From Argopecten irradians (lineage: Eukaryota > Mollusca > Bivalvia > Pectinida > Pectinidae), in the NCBI RefSeq assembly GCF_041381155.1, contig NC_091144.1, forward strand, positions 1,550,001 to 1,614,000: a stretch of DNA of 64,000 nucleotides, read 5' to 3'. Below the pieces are notes generated by a model. It made no database searches and was not told where the DNA came from. It saw only the letters and a program-made list of their open reading frames with translations. The translations under genes and the position numbers were made by a program. Below, piece by piece: positions 13,007-59,964 of the stretch. Numbering within the stretch: position 1 is the stretch's first letter; every line of letters starts with the position of its first letter.

Positions 13007-13010
13007 CCTA

Positions 13011-13140
13011 TGTAGCGGGATTGGACTGGGTTGATCATCGGTGATTAGGTAGCTCAGTCGGTAGAGCACTCGGCTAGTATTCTGAGGGTTCCGGGTTCGA
13101 ATCCCGGTCTGGCCGCTACATTTTCTCCTCTCCTGTTACA
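13011..13140 (+). repeat. Left LTR of the TRIM
   Basis: 130 bp, TG at the start and CA at the end, with a complete tRNA-like domain from 13,043 to 13,115. After that domain comes a pyrimidine-rich stretch ttttctcctctcctgttaca. Confidence 0.85.
13043..13115 (+). tRNA. tRNA-like cloverleaf within the left LTR, probably not a working tRNA
   Basis: A box TAGCTCAGTCGG (13,050-13,061) and B box GGTTCGAATCC (13,094-13,104) match the Pol III consensus exactly. D stem GCTC/GAGC, anticodon stem CTCGG/CTGAG and T stem CCGGG/CCCGG all pair. The anticodon loop CTAGTATT has eight bases instead of seven, and the acceptor stem GATTAGG/TCTGGCC is weak in this copy. It is therefore a Pol III promoter-bearing tRNA relic and not a decoding tRNA. 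Confidence 0.7.
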
Positions 13141-13144
13141 GAAT

Positions 13145-13155
13145 TGGCGCCCAAC
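13145..13155 (+). other. Primer-binding site of the TRIM
   Basis: TGGCGCCCAAC lies four bases after the left LTR. The TGG start complements a CCA tRNA tail, and the TGGCGCCCAAC core is the form used by elements primed with lysine-type tRNAs; that assignment rests on memory of other families. Confidence 0.7.
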
Positions 13156-13216
13156 TACATAACCCACGATGGTGGTGTTTGGAAGGGTCTCGTGTGTCTT
13201 CGAGGGCGAAGACTTC

Positions 13217-13233
13217 GAGAAAGGAAGGAGGAG
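13217..13233 (+). other. Polypurine tract of the TRIM
   Basis: GAGAAAGGAAGGAGGAG ends directly at the start of the right LTR, where plus-strand priming is expected in LTR elements. Confidence 0.75.
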
Positions 13234-13363
13234 TGTAGCGGGATTGGACTGGGTCGATCATCGGTGACCAGGTAGCTCAGTCGGTAGAGCACTCGGCTAG
13301 TATTCTGAGGGTCCCGGGTTCGAATCCCGGTCTGGCCGCTACATTTTCTCCTCTCCTGTTACA
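13234..13363 (+). repeat. Right LTR of the TRIM
   Basis: 130 bp, aligned to the left LTR without gaps and about 97% identical. It ends TGTTACA and is followed by the CCTA target duplication. Confidence 0.85.
13266..13338 (+). tRNA. tRNA-like cloverleaf within the right LTR, probably not a working tRNA
   Basis: Same structure as in the left LTR, but the acceptor stem GACCAGG/TCTGGCC pairs at all but one position if G-T is allowed, so this copy is closer to a true tRNA fold. The eight-base anticodon loop is shared by both copies, so it predates this insertion. Confidence 0.7.
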
Positions 13364-14194
13364 CCTATATACAACATGTGCATGTGACAGGAACCTCCAA
13401 ACACAGCCATATCATAAATATATAGGATTACATGGCATCATATGTAGGTTCCGCAGTCTTGATCAAGCCTACTGGCTATCTGCATGGCGTCCTAGTAACA
13501 TAGTTGCGTAATAACAATAATGACGTAAGGGGGTAACAAACGTTTGTTCTCATTGTGACATTTTAAAGAGACAATTCAGTGAGGCTAATTCTGTTACATA
13601 ACCACGAAGAAAATATGACATAGGTGCATTGTTCTACATTCCTTGTGAAACATATAATAAGAAATATTGACACATATCACGACGTTAAGTATTTTGATTG
13701 ATACCGTTGAAATTCCAAATCGTTGATCAATACTATTATGCAGGTACAATATGTACGCTGTACCTATACCCAAGATAAAGCCGCGCACGTTAAACATATG
13801 CAATACATACCCATATTCTACTGCAAGAGCGATATGAGTAGTTCTAGACAAAAAATCGTTACTACACAGGCAAGGGGCAGGGTTCGGCATACAAGCCATC
13901 AAACCACTATGGCGGACAGTAAGAGAGTTTGAAGATATCACATACATTTAACTACATTGAGGTTTTCTGGCATATTACAATAAAACGAAATAATCTAGTT
14001 ACCATTAGAACTGGTTTGTTTCCGAAATATGCGCAAATTTTAATGTACTCCTACATTTAATTGTCCCTTTAAATCTATTTTGATTTAGTTTTGGTACAAA
14101 TACTTTGATGAAAGTGTCTTCCTTTCTTTTTCGTTTGCTATTGCACAAGCTTATCATCTTGTGAAAAGGAACAATTTTAATGTTTCGTTTTGTA
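13364..14194. other. No recognisable gene or repeat
   Basis: The longest open frames (117 codons on the minus strand at 13,594-13,947 and an antisense partner) show no conserved domain and no sensible composition. I treat them as chance. Confidence 0.5.
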
Positions 14195-29934: not shown

Positions 29935-30128
29935 TATCTTTCATAACAACATATGCAAGAGTTTTATATCATCGTATAATAGTCACATGTGAATACTACA
30001 GTCTCCCAAAACGGCACCCACCAGTAATACACTCGTCGCTTAATAAAGGAAGCACATGTGAATGATATTTACACCTGATTTCATTGAACCTTACATACAC
30101 TGCTACATTTATTCTGTTTTACATTTAC

Positions 30129-53331: not shown

Positions 53332-53435
53332 TTTGAAACGTTATTAAGCACAAGATCGATCGTAATCTACCTATAATAACATCCAAAAAATCCATCTTAA
53401 CCTATGCATTTGGCTGAAATGTTGTTAAAACATAT

Positions 53436-54142
53436 TGTTATGTATGACACTAAATACATGTAGTTATGAGATAAGGGAGATAACTCCTATAGCTTTTTTT
53501 ATCAATACATCCTATGAAGGTCATATCATTGATTTAGGTTATAGAACTTTCTAGAATTTAATCATGTATAAACAAATATGTTTGTAAACATGTTGATTTT
53601 AAGTAGAGATCTAGAATGATCTATTTCCAGAAAGTTATGTGTGTTTACTTGTTTACTGTTTTTAGTTAGATATTTCTAGAAGTAGAAGGTTCTCCAATAT
53701 TCTTGAATTACGGTTTAGCTATATATACTCCAGCTGTCCAAGGCTAATCAGAACTGTAATGAGACCTGTAATAAGACATACCAAGAATTGTACAGCGCCA
53801 TATAAGATTCTATTGGGAGAGCTATTGTGACTTTATCTGTGGATTATTACAACACTTTGTTTGGATTTATTCATATTGCCTGGAACTTTACAAATCATCG
53901 GTGGACATTCAATTTCCTTGTGGATTTGTGATTATTGTTAATTTGAAACCTGGAAGGATCAAGGATTATACCAGGACATTCACATACAGATAAGTAACAC
54001 TTTAAATCATCGTATTACTCTTGTACCACCACGAATTACTCTAGATATTGTAAACCATCTATGTATAATATTGTATATATAATTAAATTGTGTTTTGAAT
54101 TTAGCTGCTGGTTTCTCCTTTCTGTTATTCGTTAATGTAACA
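53436..54142 (+). repeat. Left LTR of the Gmr1-like element
   Basis: 707 bp, TG...CA ends. Differences from the right LTR are mostly single-base length changes and cluster near the distal end of the right copy, so divergence-based dating is unsafe, but the insertion looks young. Confidence 0.9.
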
Positions 54143-54146
54143 GAAT

Positions 54147-54164
54147 TGGGGGCTCGTCCGGGAT
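54147..54164 (+). other. Primer-binding site of the Gmr1-like element (proline tRNA type)
   Basis: TGGGGGCTCGTCCGGGAT, 18 bases, four bases after the LTR. This is the sequence I know as the proline-tRNA primer site of murine leukaemia virus. tRNA-Pro 3' ends are strongly conserved, so a shared primer does not mean shared ancestry. Confidence 0.85.
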
Positions 54165-54268
54165 CGATATTTAATTTGTGAAATCTAACTTTGAAAAATT
54201 AATTTAGAAATTTTCAAAATTTGTGTACAAACTTTGAGTTTACATTTGAAACCAACAGCTAGATAAAT

Positions 54269-55760
54269 ATGACTACTATGCAGGTAGAACAGTTTGTTAA
54301 AGCGCCATCCCTGGAAGTTCTTTTGCAAGTTAGTAAGAAGGATTTACTGTTATTGGGTAAACATTTAGGCCTTACTATCAAAACTAATTTGAGGAAAGCT
54401 GAAATTAGGAATGTAATTATAAGATATTTTGTTGACAATGGCAAATTTGACTCTAGTGCATTAGATAGTATAGAGGAAACAGTCACTTCAGAAATCCAAA
54501 TTAGACAAATGGAACTTGAACATGAAATGAAAATGAAACAAATAGAGAAAGAAATGAGAGAAAGAGAAATAGAAAAGGAGTTAAGAGAAAAAGAAATAGA
54601 CAAAGAAAGAGAGTTAAGAGAAAAAGAAATAGACAAAGAAAGAGAGTTAAGAGAAAAAGAAATAGACAAAGAAAGAGAGTTAAGAGAAAAAGAAATTGAG
54701 AAAGAATTAAAAGAAAAAGAGAGAGATCAGATGTTAGAGCTAGAGAAGCAAAAAATTCAAGCTGAAACAGAACTTAGAATTAAAGAATTAGAACTAGCTT
54801 CTCAAGACAGTTCAAGTAATCCAACTTTTATGGGTTTACGAGGAAACAGAGTTTTTGATGTCAGTAGAAACATAAGGTTAGTTCCTCCTTTTCAAGAGAA
54901 AGAAGTTGACAAGTATTTTCTGCATTTTGAGAAAATAGCTGACAGTATGAAATGGCCTGAAGATAAGCTTACAATGCTTCTTCAGAGTGTCTTGATTGGT
55001 AAAGCTAGAGACATTTATTCTTCTTTATCTGTAGATGAGATTTCAAATTACCAAGTAGTCAAGAAAGCTATTTTGAAAGCTTATGAGTTAGTTCCTGAGG
55101 CTTACCGCCAGAAATTTCGAAACTCGAGAAAGAGAGATGAACAAACTCATGTAGAATTTGCCAGAGAAAAGGAACAATTATTTAATAGGTGGTGTGATTC
55201 TAAAGAAATTGATGAGGATTTCGGTAAATTGAGGCAATTATTGTTGATAGAGGAGTTTAAACGTTGTGTCCACACAAACATAAAAACTCATTTAGATGAG
55301 AGAAAAGTTGAAACACTTAGTGAAGCAGCTACAATGGCTGATGATTACGCTCTCACCCACAAAGGCTCATTTGTTAAAAACAGTTCTCAAGACAAAAACA
55401 GTACCACAGGTACTAGTAAATTTGGTCAGCCTAGGAACTCAACCTTTAGTGGCCCTTCCAACGACAAACCTAAATTAGGTGATAAAACTGAGTCTGCTTC
55501 TAAAACAGATGATAGGGTAGGTGTGGGGTCTCCTTCTGGTCCTGTTTGTAATTACTGCAAGAAAGTAGGGCATACTATGTCTGAATGTTATTCTCTCCAG
55601 CGTAAGGAGCAAAGGCGTAAACAGTCAGTTCCTTCTGTGTTAGCTATGTCAAAGCCTAGTCAGAAACTTAGTGATATTGTGGAAGATTCTAAAGTGTCTG
55701 TTGAAATTAAGAGCTCAGAGTCTGATAGCGTCTTGGAGAAGTACTCTCCCTTCATTTCTG
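54269..55760 (+). mobile_element. gag region: SAP-like N terminus, coiled coil, SCAN-like capsid, zinc knuckle
   Basis: Starts at MTTMQVEQFVK. Residues about 13-58 look like a short SAP-type helix pair. About 70-180 is a highly charged coiled coil with three tandem ELREKEIDKER-type repeats (33-bp DNA repeats around 54,580-54,700). The capsid-like part, about 54,880-55,370, contains YFLHFEKIADSMKWP and YRQKFRNSRK and resembles the SCAN domain. The zinc knuckle CNYCKKVGHTMSEC lies at about 55,546-55,590. In the family, gag forms the intracellular particle. Confidence 0.8.
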
Positions 55761-56120
55761 AAGGTTTTGTTTCACTTACTAGTGATATCACCAACTTGAA
55801 ACCTGTGAAGATTTTGAGAGATACTGGGGCTTCTCATTCTTTAATATTAGATGGTGTAGTGCCTTTGTCTGAGGAGACCTCATCTGGTAGTAGTGTTTTG
55901 CTTCAAGGTGTAGAGTTAGGTTTTGTTAATGTGCCTCTCCATTGTGTTTATTTAAAGTCAGATTTGGTTACTGGGCCTGTCACCATTGGTGTTAGACCGG
56001 AACTTCCCATAGAGGGCGTGTCGCTCATTTTAGGCAATGACTTGGCTGGAGAGAAAGTTAGGGTAGATCCCTTAGTGTCCAGTATCCCTGATAAAACAGA
56101 TGATGCTGAGACTATTCAAC
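55761..56120 (+). mobile_element. Protease region of the Gmr1-like element
   Basis: The aspartic protease signature LRDTGASHSL lies at about 55,813-55,842, followed by the LILGNDLAG motif typical of retropepsins at about 56,020. It releases the mature proteins from the polyprotein in related elements. Confidence 0.8.
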
Positions 56121-56379
56121 AGGAATTTCCTGGTATTTTCCCTTCTTGTGCTGTAACTCGTTCAATGAGTAAGAAGGTTTCTGATGGTGCAGTAGTTGAG
56201 GATCATTATAGTCCAGGGTTAGGTGACACTTTCTTGGCTCATGATATAGAGGATGTCGGGAGCAAGTGTGATCTTTTGAGCAATCCTGTAGACTTTGATA
56301 GTAATAGAGTTGTTCCTAACAAGGGTACTTCTTTGTCTGACATGATGAGTAAATCATCTTTGTCTAGAGAGGAGCTTAT

Positions 56380-57640
56380 AGTAGAACAGGAAAAAGATCC
56401 TGAAATCTCCTTACTGTGTAATCGGGCTTTGAGTGAGGAAGAGGCGGAGAAAGTCCCGGTTTGTTACTTCCGTAGGTCAGGTGTGTTGATGCGCAAGTGG
56501 CGCCCCCCTGATGTGTCTCCCGAGGAAGACTGGAAGGTTGTCAATCAAATAGTTGTCCCACCGAGGTATAGGCAAGATATTCTAAGTTTGTCTCATGACG
56601 TACCTATGGCAGGGCATTTAGGTGTGACCAAGACTTATAACAGGATCTTAGATCACTCCTTTTGGCCCAAGTTGAAACGGGATGTGGCTGATTTTTGTAG
56701 GTCTTGTCATACTTGTCAGGTGGTAGGGAAACCTAATCAGAAAATCCCTGTTGCACCTTTGCACCCCATTCCAGCATTTGAGGAACCATTTAGTAGAGTC
56801 ATTATAGACTGTGTAGGTCCTCTACCCAAAACTAAGTCTGGGAATGAGTATCTTTTAACTATTATGTGTGCTTCCACACGCTTTCCTGAAGCCATTCCAC
56901 TCAGGAATATTAAAGCCCCTAACATAGTCAAGGCTTTGGTTAAATTCTTTACATTGGTTGGTCTTCCAAAAGCTGTCCAATCGGACCAAGGTTCAAATTC
57001 CATGTCTGGTATTTTTCAACAAGTCATGTACCAGCTCCAGATCAAGCAGTATAAGTCTAGTGCTTATCATCCAGAGTCTCAGGGTGCTTTAGAACGTTTT
57101 CATCAGACATTGAAGAATATGATGAGATCTTATTGTTTTGAAAACAAAAGAGATTGGGACGAAGGTATACACATGTTGTTGTTTGGCGTTAGAGAATCTG
57201 TACAAGAATCTCTTGGCTTCAGTCCCTTTGAACTTGTGTTTGGACATACTGTACGTGGTCCTTTGAAAATTTTGAAAGACAAAATTTTGGACGAAGATTC
57301 TAAAGTTAATCTCTTAGAGTATGTGTCTAACTTTAAGCAAAGGTTGACAAGGGCATGTGAACTGGCAAAAGAAAATTTGGCCGTTACTCAAACCAAAATG
57401 AAAACATGGTATGATAAAGATGCCCGTGCAAGAAGTTTTGATCCAGGTGACAAAATTTTGGCTCTATTACCAATACCGGGTCAGCCTTTGCAAGCTAGAT
57501 ATTTTGGACCTTATGTTGTTGAGAAAAAGGTCGATGATGTTAACTACATTGTACAAACTCCAGGGAGGCGCAAGAAAACTCAATTATGTCATGTTAATAT
57601 GCTTAAGAAATATGTAGATAGAGAAGAGAGCAAGACCTCT
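56380..57640 (+). mobile_element. Integrase region, placed before reverse transcriptase
   Basis: The HHCC finger spans about 56,590-56,720 (AGHLGVTKTY ... CRSCHTCQ). The DDE core includes IIDCVGP (about 56,802), QSDQGSNS (about 56,980) and GALERFHQT (about 57,086). A C-terminal module with YFGPYVVEKK at about 57,500 is the gypsy-type GPY/F module. Confidence 0.88.
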
Positions 57641-57799
57641 CAACCTATTGCTACTTTGGCCTCTGTACCATCACAAAGTGAAAGTACAGCTGATATTTGT
57701 AAATTAGACTTAGATGGTGGTGTACAAGATGTAGGTTTAGACTGTGGTGTTAAGTTACGGAATTCAGATGTGCTCGCGAACTTGGACAAAAAACTGTGT

Positions 57800-58640
57800 C
57801 ATCTATCAGAAAAGGAACGCAATGAACTGAAAGATTTGATACTTGAGTTTAAACATTTGTTTCCGGATACACCAGGCAAAACAGATGCTATCTATCATGA
57901 CGTGGATGTAGGCGATGCGCCACCTGTCAAGCAACATCCTTACCGTGTCAATCCTTTGAAAGAAGAACACTTAAAGAAAGAAATTCAATACATGTTGGAC
58001 AATGATATTATTGAACCAAGCAAAAGTGAATGGAGCTCTCCATGTGTTCTGGTGCCAAAGCCAGACAAGACATACCGGTTCTGTACTGACTTCAGAAAAG
58101 TAAACTCTGTCAGTAAAACAGACTCTTATCCAATTCCAAGGATTGACTCGTGTATTGACAAAGTTGGCAAAGCCAAGTACGTAAGCAAGTTTGACCTGTT
58201 GAAAGGATATTGGCAGGTGCCATTAAAAGAAAGAGCTAAAGAAGTGTCCGCATTTGTAACCTCGCAAGGTTTGTACCAGTACAAAGTTATGCCATTTGGT
58301 ATGAAGAATGCCCCGGCAACATTTCAACGACTTCTTAACAGCGTGATATCAGACCTGGAAGGCTGTGGTGGATACATCGATGACGTCATCAACTACCACG
58401 ACACGTGGGAAGACCATCTACGCAGGATTCGTGAATTCTTCGAAAGACTCACTACCATGAAATTGACTGTAAACTTATTGAAATGTGAATTTTGTCATGC
58501 AACTGTTGATTTTTTAGGCCATGTTGTAGGACAGGGGCAGGTTAAACCTGTTCAGGCCAAAGTAGAATCAATTATAGATTTTCCAGCTCCTGGAGGCAAG
58601 AGAGAGCTGATGAGGTTTCTTGGTATGGCTGGATAATACA
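57800..58640 (+). mobile_element. Reverse transcriptase region of the Gmr1-like element
   Basis: YRFCTDFRKVNSVS, KFDLLKGYWQVPL, PFGMKNAPATFQRL and the catalytic YIDDV box (about 58,372-58,386) follow in the standard gypsy order. It copies element RNA into DNA inside the particle. Confidence 0.88.
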
Positions 58641-58799
58641 GAAAATTTTGTCAAAATTTCTCTGTTATAGCAGCTCCACTTACTGCTTTGTTAAAGAAAA
58701 ATGTCAAATTTGTCTGGTCAGACGAATGTAAGTCTGCCTTTGAGAAATTGAAAGCCATACTATCAAACTCACCAGTTCTGACTGCTCCAGATTTTAATA

Positions 58800-59177
58800 A
58801 ACAGTTTTAAACTGTTTGTTGACGCCAGCGATGTAGGTGTTGGTGCTGTTTTGATGCAAGAAGGTACTGAACAAATTGACCATCCAATTTGTTATTTCTC
58901 GAAAAAGTTTGACAAACACCAGAGAAATTATTCCACCATTGAGAAAGAATGTTTAGCATTGATTTTGGCCTTAAACCAATTTGATGTGTATCTATGCACT
59001 ACAGTTGTGCCTGTGTTGGTCTTCACCGACCACAACCCTTTGACATTCATTGGGAAAATGAAAAACAAAAATCAAAGAATTCTCAGGTGGAGTTTGACTT
59101 TGCAAGAGTACAATCTTGACATCAAACATATCAAAGGGAAAGACAATATTCTAGCTGATGCTTTATCAAGGATTTAA
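58800..59177 (+). mobile_element. RNase H region of the Gmr1-like element
   Basis: Blocks like FVDASDVGVGAVL, YSTIEKECLALILAL, VFTDHNPLTFI and KGKDNILADALSR identify the RNase H domain that ends gypsy-type pol genes. No coding region for integrase follows, confirming the changed order. Confidence 0.85.
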
Positions 59178-59231
59178 ATATTACTTGATATGTCAAGAAA
59201 GTTTCCTTTTCAAGAAAACTTTCTTTTCTTT

Positions 59232-59242
59232 AAGGAGGGGTG
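59232..59242 (+). other. Polypurine tract of the Gmr1-like element
   Basis: aaggaggggtg immediately before the TG of the right LTR. It is short but correctly placed. Confidence 0.7.
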
Positions 59243-59964
59243 TGTTATGTATGACACTAAATACATGTAGTTATGAGATAAGGGAGATAACTCCTATAGC
59301 TTTTTTTTATCAATACATCCTATGAAGGTCATATCATTGATTTAGGTTATAGAACTTTCTAGAATTTAATCATGTATAAACAAATATGTTTGTAAACATG
59401 TTGATATTTTAAGTAGAGATCTAGAATGATCTATTTCAGAAAGTTATGTGTGTTTACTTGTTTACTGTTTTTAGTTAGATATTTCTAGAAGTAGAAGGTT
59501 CTCCAATATTCTTGAATTACGGTTTAGCTATATATACTCCAGCTGTCCAAGGCTAATCAGAACTGTAATGAGACCTGTAATAAGACATACCAAGAATTGT
59601 ACAGCGCCATATAAGATTCTATTGGGAGAGCTATTGTGACTTTAATCTGTGGATTATTACAACACTTTGTTTGGATTTATTCATATTGCCTGGAACTTTA
59701 CAAATCATCGGTGGACATTCAATTTCCTTTAGGATTTGTGATTATTGTTAATTTGAAACCTGGAAGGATCAAAGGATTATACCAGGACATTCACATACAG
59801 ATAAGTAAACACTTTAAATCATCGTATTACTCTTGTACCACCACGAATTACTCTAGATATTGTAAACCATCCTATGTATAAATATTGTATCATATTAATT
59901 AATTTGTGTCTGTTTTGGAATTTAGCTGCTGGTTTCTCCTTTCTTGTTATTCGTTCATGTAACA
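59243..59964 (+). repeat. Right LTR of the Gmr1-like element
   Basis: 722 bp. Nearly identical to the left LTR over its first 500 bp. The distal 200 bp carries many extra single bases, like the host sequence that follows. Confidence 0.88.

Follow-up and report, generated by a model that had tools for sequence, protein, structure and literature searches.

The 353-bp element at positions 13011–13363 of the window (the whole 64,000-nt stretch of Argopecten irradians DNA analysed here) is, with high confidence, a Helenus-type element, i.e., a non-autonomous LTR retrotransposon (TRIM) with tRNA-derived sequence in its LTRs. The design has been known as Helenus since 2024, and we liken the element to Helenus by description, not by sequence to a published consensus. 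The family is large, with many young copies, and is abundant and recently active in the host genome. TRIMs with a Pol III-type promoter have been called TRIMp3 by Kojima (PMC10886601), and the element is a clear example of these, in which the promoter logic of a SINE meets the copying logic of an LTR element. The copies, duplications, solo LTRs and target sites counted below further support an integrase-type mode of insertion in this animal family.

Structure of the element

Two direct repeats of 130 bp each, 97% identical in a repeat search (LTR1, 13011–13140, and LTR2, 13234–13363), enclose an internal part of 93 bp (13141–13233), giving a total of 353 bp. The LTRs start with TGTAGCGG and finish with TGTTACA, while the internal part opens with GAAT-TGGCGCCCAAC, a spacer followed by the primer-binding site (PBS), and closes with 17 purines. 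The preliminary description had proposed this anatomy (two 130-bp LTRs, a PBS, a purine tract, a CCTA duplication and 93 bp inside), and all of it is seen in the sequence and in the repeat search. The element is short, lies within the Helenus size span of 311–1263 bp and is without coding capacity. Its features are as follows.

13007–13010, no strand: left target site duplication (TSD), CCTA; letters checked
13011–13140, + strand: 5' LTR; 130-nt direct repeat, 97%
13043–13115, + strand: tRNA-like body of the 5' LTR; Rfam RF00005, 43.1 bits; 13043–13116 in ARAGORN
13050–13061, + strand: box A of the 5' LTR, TAGCTCAGTCGG; from the sequence, fits the box A consensus
13094–13104, + strand: box B of the 5' LTR, GGTTCGAATCC; from the sequence, fits the box B consensus
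13121–13124, + strand: TTTT of the 5' LTR, which may terminate Pol III and would have to be read through to give a full-length transcript; from the sequence, role putative
13145–13155, + strand: PBS, TGGCGCCCAAC; from the sequence, primer identity presumed and on the bivalve Helenus list
13217–13233, + strand: polypurine tract, GAGAAAGGAAGGAGGAG; 17 purines, from the sequence
13234–13363, + strand: 3' LTR; direct repeat, identical to the majority letters of LTRs from young copies
13266–13338, + strand: tRNA-like body of the 3' LTR; Rfam RF00005, 48.4 bits
13273–13284, + strand: box A of the 3' LTR; from the sequence
13317–13327, + strand: box B of the 3' LTR; from the sequence
13344–13347, + strand: TTTT of the 3' LTR, likely end of a full-length transcript; from the sequence, role putative
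13364–13367, no strand: right TSD, CCTA; letters checked

We take the 11 nt of the PBS to be complementary to the 3' end of tRNA-Lys. With at most one mismatch this 11-mer occurs 4 times in the window against 0.19 expected, and exactly only at 13145–13155. No second copy of the element was found within the 64-kb window, and the flank of the window copy has no A-rich tail. The two LTRs differ by four mismatches (LTR positions 22, 35, 36 and 80), each a T in the 5' LTR and a C in the 3' LTR, and the letters of the 3' LTR are the majority letters of 73 LTRs from young copies. Such a one-directional pattern is unusual for a young pair and might stem from deamination or from recombination between copies.

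The tRNA-like body and its promoter boxes

The match to RF00005 spans the whole model in both LTRs, with 43.1 bits (E 7.9e-06) in the 5' copy and 48.4 bits (E 2.7e-07) in the 3' copy, and the Rfam scan of the window at gathering scores returned tRNA matches only. Boxes A and B are present in both LTRs, with letters that fit the Pol III promoter consensus, and a TTTT lies a few bases downstream of the tRNA-like body. The anticodon loop comprises 8 nt and the acceptor stem contains an A-C mismatch, so that the body is tRNA-like and not a plausible working tRNA; the loop may be read as a Thr AGT loop plus one extra base. The 73-base cloverleaf claimed earlier thus stands as regards the whole-model match and the boxes in both LTRs, and is qualified by the enlarged loop and the mismatch. 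ARAGORN reports two tRNA-like genes in the element and assigns an anticodon to neither. This is a hazard for annotation, as LTR copies can be miscalled as tRNA genes, which is what ARAGORN does at the window copy.

In the young layer of copies the letters of both boxes are intact, and older copies differ from young ones in the letters of the anticodon arm. Among 89 diverged LTRs, box A has 0.077 and box B 0.097 changes per site, compared with 0.071 for U3 and 0.112 for the tRNA-like part as a whole. Since the rates for the boxes are not below that of U3, decayed copies do not show any special protection of the boxes, and these 89 LTRs by themselves do not show selection on the promoter. Conservation of U5 and of the TTTT is not judgeable here because part of the sample was picked by an exact LTR end.

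Copies across the genome and their insertion sites

The junction of LTR and PBS has 740 matches with at most 3 mismatches in the 845.8-Mb host genome, and the 3' end of the LTR has 2,720 at the same threshold, with the reversed pattern giving 0 in either case. Two LTR ends per junction account for 1,480 of these, and the approximately 1,240 further ends represent solo LTRs together with odd or decayed copies. We fetched 114 loci, namely the 40 best BLAST matches (window copy included), 40 junctions with at most 1 mismatch and 34 exact LTR 3' ends, a sample that is biased toward young copies and kept LTR ends. The 116 units classed from it comprise 67 complete copies, 18 LTRs for which no internal part was detected, 3 arrays (the largest, L014, with six LTRs) and 28 partial cases.

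All 67 complete copies have the same 130-bp repeat around the PBS and purine tract. An exact 4-bp TSD borders 48 of the 67, with distinct flanks in 47 of these 48. Controls on the same 67 copies are far lower: shifting one side by one base gives 2 and 2, and an exact duplication of 3 bp is seen in 0 copies, one of 5 bp in 2 and one of 6 bp in 3. The duplications of the other 19 copies are inexact, 9 to 10 differing by one base and the others by 2–4. Exact 4-bp TSDs occur in none of the 28 partial cases and in 1 of the 3 arrays. A purine tract, GAGGAG or GATGAG, precedes eleven of the 18 LTRs without an internal part, and an interrupted internal part precedes one more (L069); these 12 units are therefore taken as 3' LTRs of odd copies. 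The remaining 6 are true solo LTRs, each with an exact 4-bp TSD (6/6); one of them (L056) sits in a run of A.

The target sites with a TSD (n=55) have a weakly palindromic consensus, TA[CATG]TA, in which the letters are found T 37, A 33, [C 26, A 36, T 34, G 21], T 32 and A 41 times out of 55. Such a palindrome would be expected from an integrase that acts with a 4-bp stagger. Of the LTR pairs of the 67 complete copies, 13 are identical, 14 have one difference, 9 have two and 14 have more, with 17 pairs of unequal length. The preliminary description had named many genomic copies with short duplications as support for a TRIM, and the 740 junctions and 48 exact TSDs among 67 copies provide this; the solo LTRs and the shared internal part that it also listed are both present.

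Six loci of the sample (L053, L058, L077, L080, L082 and L089) have a near-identical 3' LTR and a shared right flank (TATGGT or close). L053 and L058 additionally show an internal deletion in the 5' LTR and a shorter internal part. All six give the impression of a single defective copy that a larger repeat has multiplied.

Relation to described elements

Helenus is defined as the TRIMs with tRNA-derived sequence in their LTRs, and its reported hosts are fungi, plants and animals of six phyla (Kojima 2024, PMC10886601). The animal members have 4-bp TSDs and are Gypsy-like at the PBS; those of bivalves have a PBS for tRNA-Lys among others, and seven of these bivalve families can encode a tRNA-Thr (PMC10886601). 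The element agrees with this description in its tRNA-derived LTRs, in its PBS and polypurine tract, in its length within 311–1263 bp, in the 4-bp TSD of animal members and, presumably, in the tRNA-Lys PBS of bivalve members, as well as in its solo LTRs, tandem arrays and copy numbers of hundreds to thousands (PMC10886601). Tandem arrays are known in Helenus for LTR-11_DR, and the Helenus motifs TRGCY and YGG of box A and GGTTC of box B are present in the element (PMC10886601). Among the features compared here, and as far as the consulted parts of the Helenus description extend, no difference was found. Those same parts make no mention of a palindromic target consensus or of pairing between U3 and tRNA-like part (PMC10886601). 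Argopecten irradians is itself on the list of Helenus hosts (Table 1 of PMC10886601), and thus the exact family may already be named.

The preliminary description knew of no comparable design other than the plant TRIM Cassandra and of no account of such a family. Helenus, published in 2024, is the same design, and its animal members make 4-bp duplications and occur in bivalves among other hosts (PMC10886601), so that Cassandra is not the only parallel and the kind of element is not new. Cassandra is also a TRIM whose LTRs contain a Pol III promoter from a small RNA gene, and it too forms tandem arrays, but its LTRs carry 5S rRNA (PMC10886601), whereas Rfam finds only tRNA here. The nemertean Ajax is likewise an animal TRIM with a small-RNA promoter in its LTRs and differs in being 5S-derived with a 5-bp TSD (PMC10886601). 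Another bivalve TRIM, biv-TRIM, also forms solo repeats and tandem arrays; in its description, on which the contrast is based, no unambiguous PBS is reported and the term 'polymerase III' does not occur (PMC6934838).

A possible life cycle and the alternatives

The observations can be arranged into a life cycle in which Pol III would start in the 5' LTR, a short way upstream of its tRNA-like body, pass the first TTTT and end at the TTTT of the 3' LTR, so that the RNA would have a tRNA-like part at both ends (R). A tRNA-Lys would then prime reverse transcription at the PBS, and a Ty3/Gypsy element would supply reverse transcriptase and integrase in trans, with insertion at a 4-bp stagger. The LTR route is supported by the anatomy, the TSDs and the target sites, and we infer the use of Pol III as polymerase and of a Gypsy helper in trans. 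Pol III transcription of Helenus in general is described as expected, not proven (PMC10886601). Such a cycle would require Pol III to pass the 5' LTR terminator, the RNA to escape tRNA processing and another element to supply the proteins.

A tandem pair of tRNA-derived SINEs might mimic a TRIM, and it would share the tRNA-like promoter; solo LTRs, of which there are six here with one (L056) in a run of A, are likewise single units of 130 bp. This reading is extremely improbable and we reject it, as every one of the 67 complete copies places the same repeat around the PBS and purine tract, the TSD has a fixed length of 4 bp (48/67), the target consensus is palindromic and the window copy lacks an A-rich tail. 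The 4-bp TSDs, solo LTRs, arrays and palindromic target sites together argue for an integrase-type TRIM and not for a SINE pair, and the inspected copies do not present the picture that would speak against a TRIM, in which the 130-bp units would stand singly, with flanks that vary and tails rich in A. We consider it very improbable as well that the bodies are two functional tRNA genes, or a cluster of such genes, surrounded by repeats only by coincidence. Rfam scores of 43–48 bits across the whole model and the predicted cloverleaf of a transcript from LTR base 25 to the TTTT would agree with working genes, but the 8-nt anticodon loop, the unassigned anticodon and the acceptor A-C mismatch would not, the bare 73-nt body is predicted to fold otherwise, and hundreds of dispersed copies carry TSDs. 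Most Helenus elements are, moreover, judged unlikely to encode a functional tRNA (PMC10886601).

The element could also be a TRIM transcribed by Pol II, in which the tRNA-like part is a passenger or has another role, e.g., in packaging or as a primer mimic. Such transcription would avoid the TTTT of the 5' LTR, which should stop much of Pol III, and it would agree with promoter boxes that are no better conserved than U3 in diverged copies. We regard it as unlikely, given that young copies have kept both promoter boxes intact and that a tRNA-like part occurs in the LTRs of many independent Helenus lineages, for which the consulted text gives no complementarity between tRNA-like part and PBS (PMC10886601).

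Predicted folding of the LTR RNA

In RNA folding, the transcript from LTR base 25 to the TTTT is predicted as a cloverleaf, with mean pair probabilities of 0.71 (acceptor), 0.82 (D), 0.82 (anticodon) and 0.99 (T). The cloverleaf is weaker when the RNA begins at LTR base 20 (0.30, 0.49, 0.60 and 0.76 for the same arms), and the bare 73-nt body mostly adopts another fold (acceptor 0.09, T 0.99). In the whole LTR the acceptor falls to 0.00 and the T arm to 0.01. A model of the full-length RNA likewise gives 0.00 for both the acceptor and T arm of the 5' body, and 0.00 for the acceptor of the 3' body, of which the T arm is kept (0.82).

The competing structure pairs U3 bases 1–20 with the 3' half of the tRNA-like part at −26.8 kcal/mol, a value matched by 4 of 2000 dinucleotide shuffles of U3 in a test that was chosen post hoc, after the fold had been seen. 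The 8-bp inverted repeat of the LTR alone is reached by 65 of 1000 shuffles, and pairing between the purine tract and U5 is no better than in shuffles (674/1000). Covariation was assessed in the 89 of 194 LTRs with 5 or more differences, and neither stem received support: stem 1–8/103–110 has 73 one-sided changes (23 paired) and 4 two-sided changes (2 paired), and stem 13–20/93–100 has 92 one-sided changes (42 paired) and 7 two-sided changes (3 paired). At L143 (1160–1430) a strongly diverged relative lies beside a copy of the element. A TGCAGCC close to the 5' side of this relative and a GGCTGCA that follows its tRNA-like part can still pair, one isolated hint that paired changes may have preserved the inverted repeat of the LTR.

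These predicted folds suggest the tentative and rather doubtful idea that the LTR might act as a two-state RNA device, in which a stop at the first TTTT would give the tRNA-like fold and read-through would let U3 pairing disrupt the cloverleaf. If this were true, the disrupted cloverleaf would shield the genomic RNA from tRNA processing, and the leakiness of the 5' LTR terminator would set the split between tRNA-like RNA and template for retrotransposition.

Search for an autonomous helper

Three pattern searches of the genome, with 30 of 49, 20 of 27 and 4 of 64 matches inspected, identified no autonomous helper. The pattern of the first was ACA, 4 nt and the PBS with one base set against the usual copy, which misses a helper with the excluded base; it gave 49 matches, with 1 and 1 for the reversed control. 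At 28 of the 30 loci inspected BLAST recognises sequence of the element at the site; four of the 28 (L151, L152, L159 and L160) are part of a tandem unit described below. Where BLAST matches the 3' part of the LTR only (L150, L156) the loci look like decayed copies by eye, as does L131. L138 is unrelated to the element. In the other 19 matches (18 on contig C57 and 1 on C179) the matched letters resemble a tandem unit of approximately 1.8 kb. The second search combined the purine tract with the LTR start, again with one base set against the usual copy and with the same blind spot for a helper that has the excluded base, and gave 27 matches (control 0); all 20 that were cut out are copies of the element by eye. 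The third, TACA followed by 0–10 nt and the PBS plus G (one more tRNA-Lys base), gave 64 matches (control 0), and of the four inspected L182 is a copy of the element and L181, L183 and L184 share 12–14 nt around the PBS only.

The tandem unit of ~1.8 kb is located at G000:C57 14929–76382 (L159, L160) and also in L151 and L152, with 20 PBS sites on C57. It carries internal part 1–85 and LTR 8–36 of the element without the tRNA-like body, and is a captured fragment of the element that has been amplified; Rfam found nothing else on L151, L152, L159 and L160. A separate cluster at G000:C9 182081–210235 has five PBS sites of the form TACA-ATT-TGGCGCCCAACG, at spacings of 5.6, 5.8, 5.5 and 11.4 kb, which suggests that another element, with a PBS of the tRNA-Lys type, is arrayed in tandem there. 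A 600-bp sample of this cluster (L185) has no frame of at least 80 aa.

Other features of the window

The window also contains an LTR retrotransposon at 53436–59959 with an open frame at 54269–58636, and its PBS differs from that of the 353-bp element. The frame has integrase domains (residues 763–1114) before the reverse transcriptase (1262–1419), together with a SCAN-like match. Integrase before reverse transcriptase is the order of Gmr1-like Gypsy elements. From about 29000 to 64000 the window has tandem units of ~9.6 kb that are 98–99.5% alike, each with a Mab-21-like frame (at 30062, 39684 and 49294; the Pfam match comes from the second frame, the one tested). The third of these units is broken at 53435/59960 by the LTR retrotransposon at 53436–59959.
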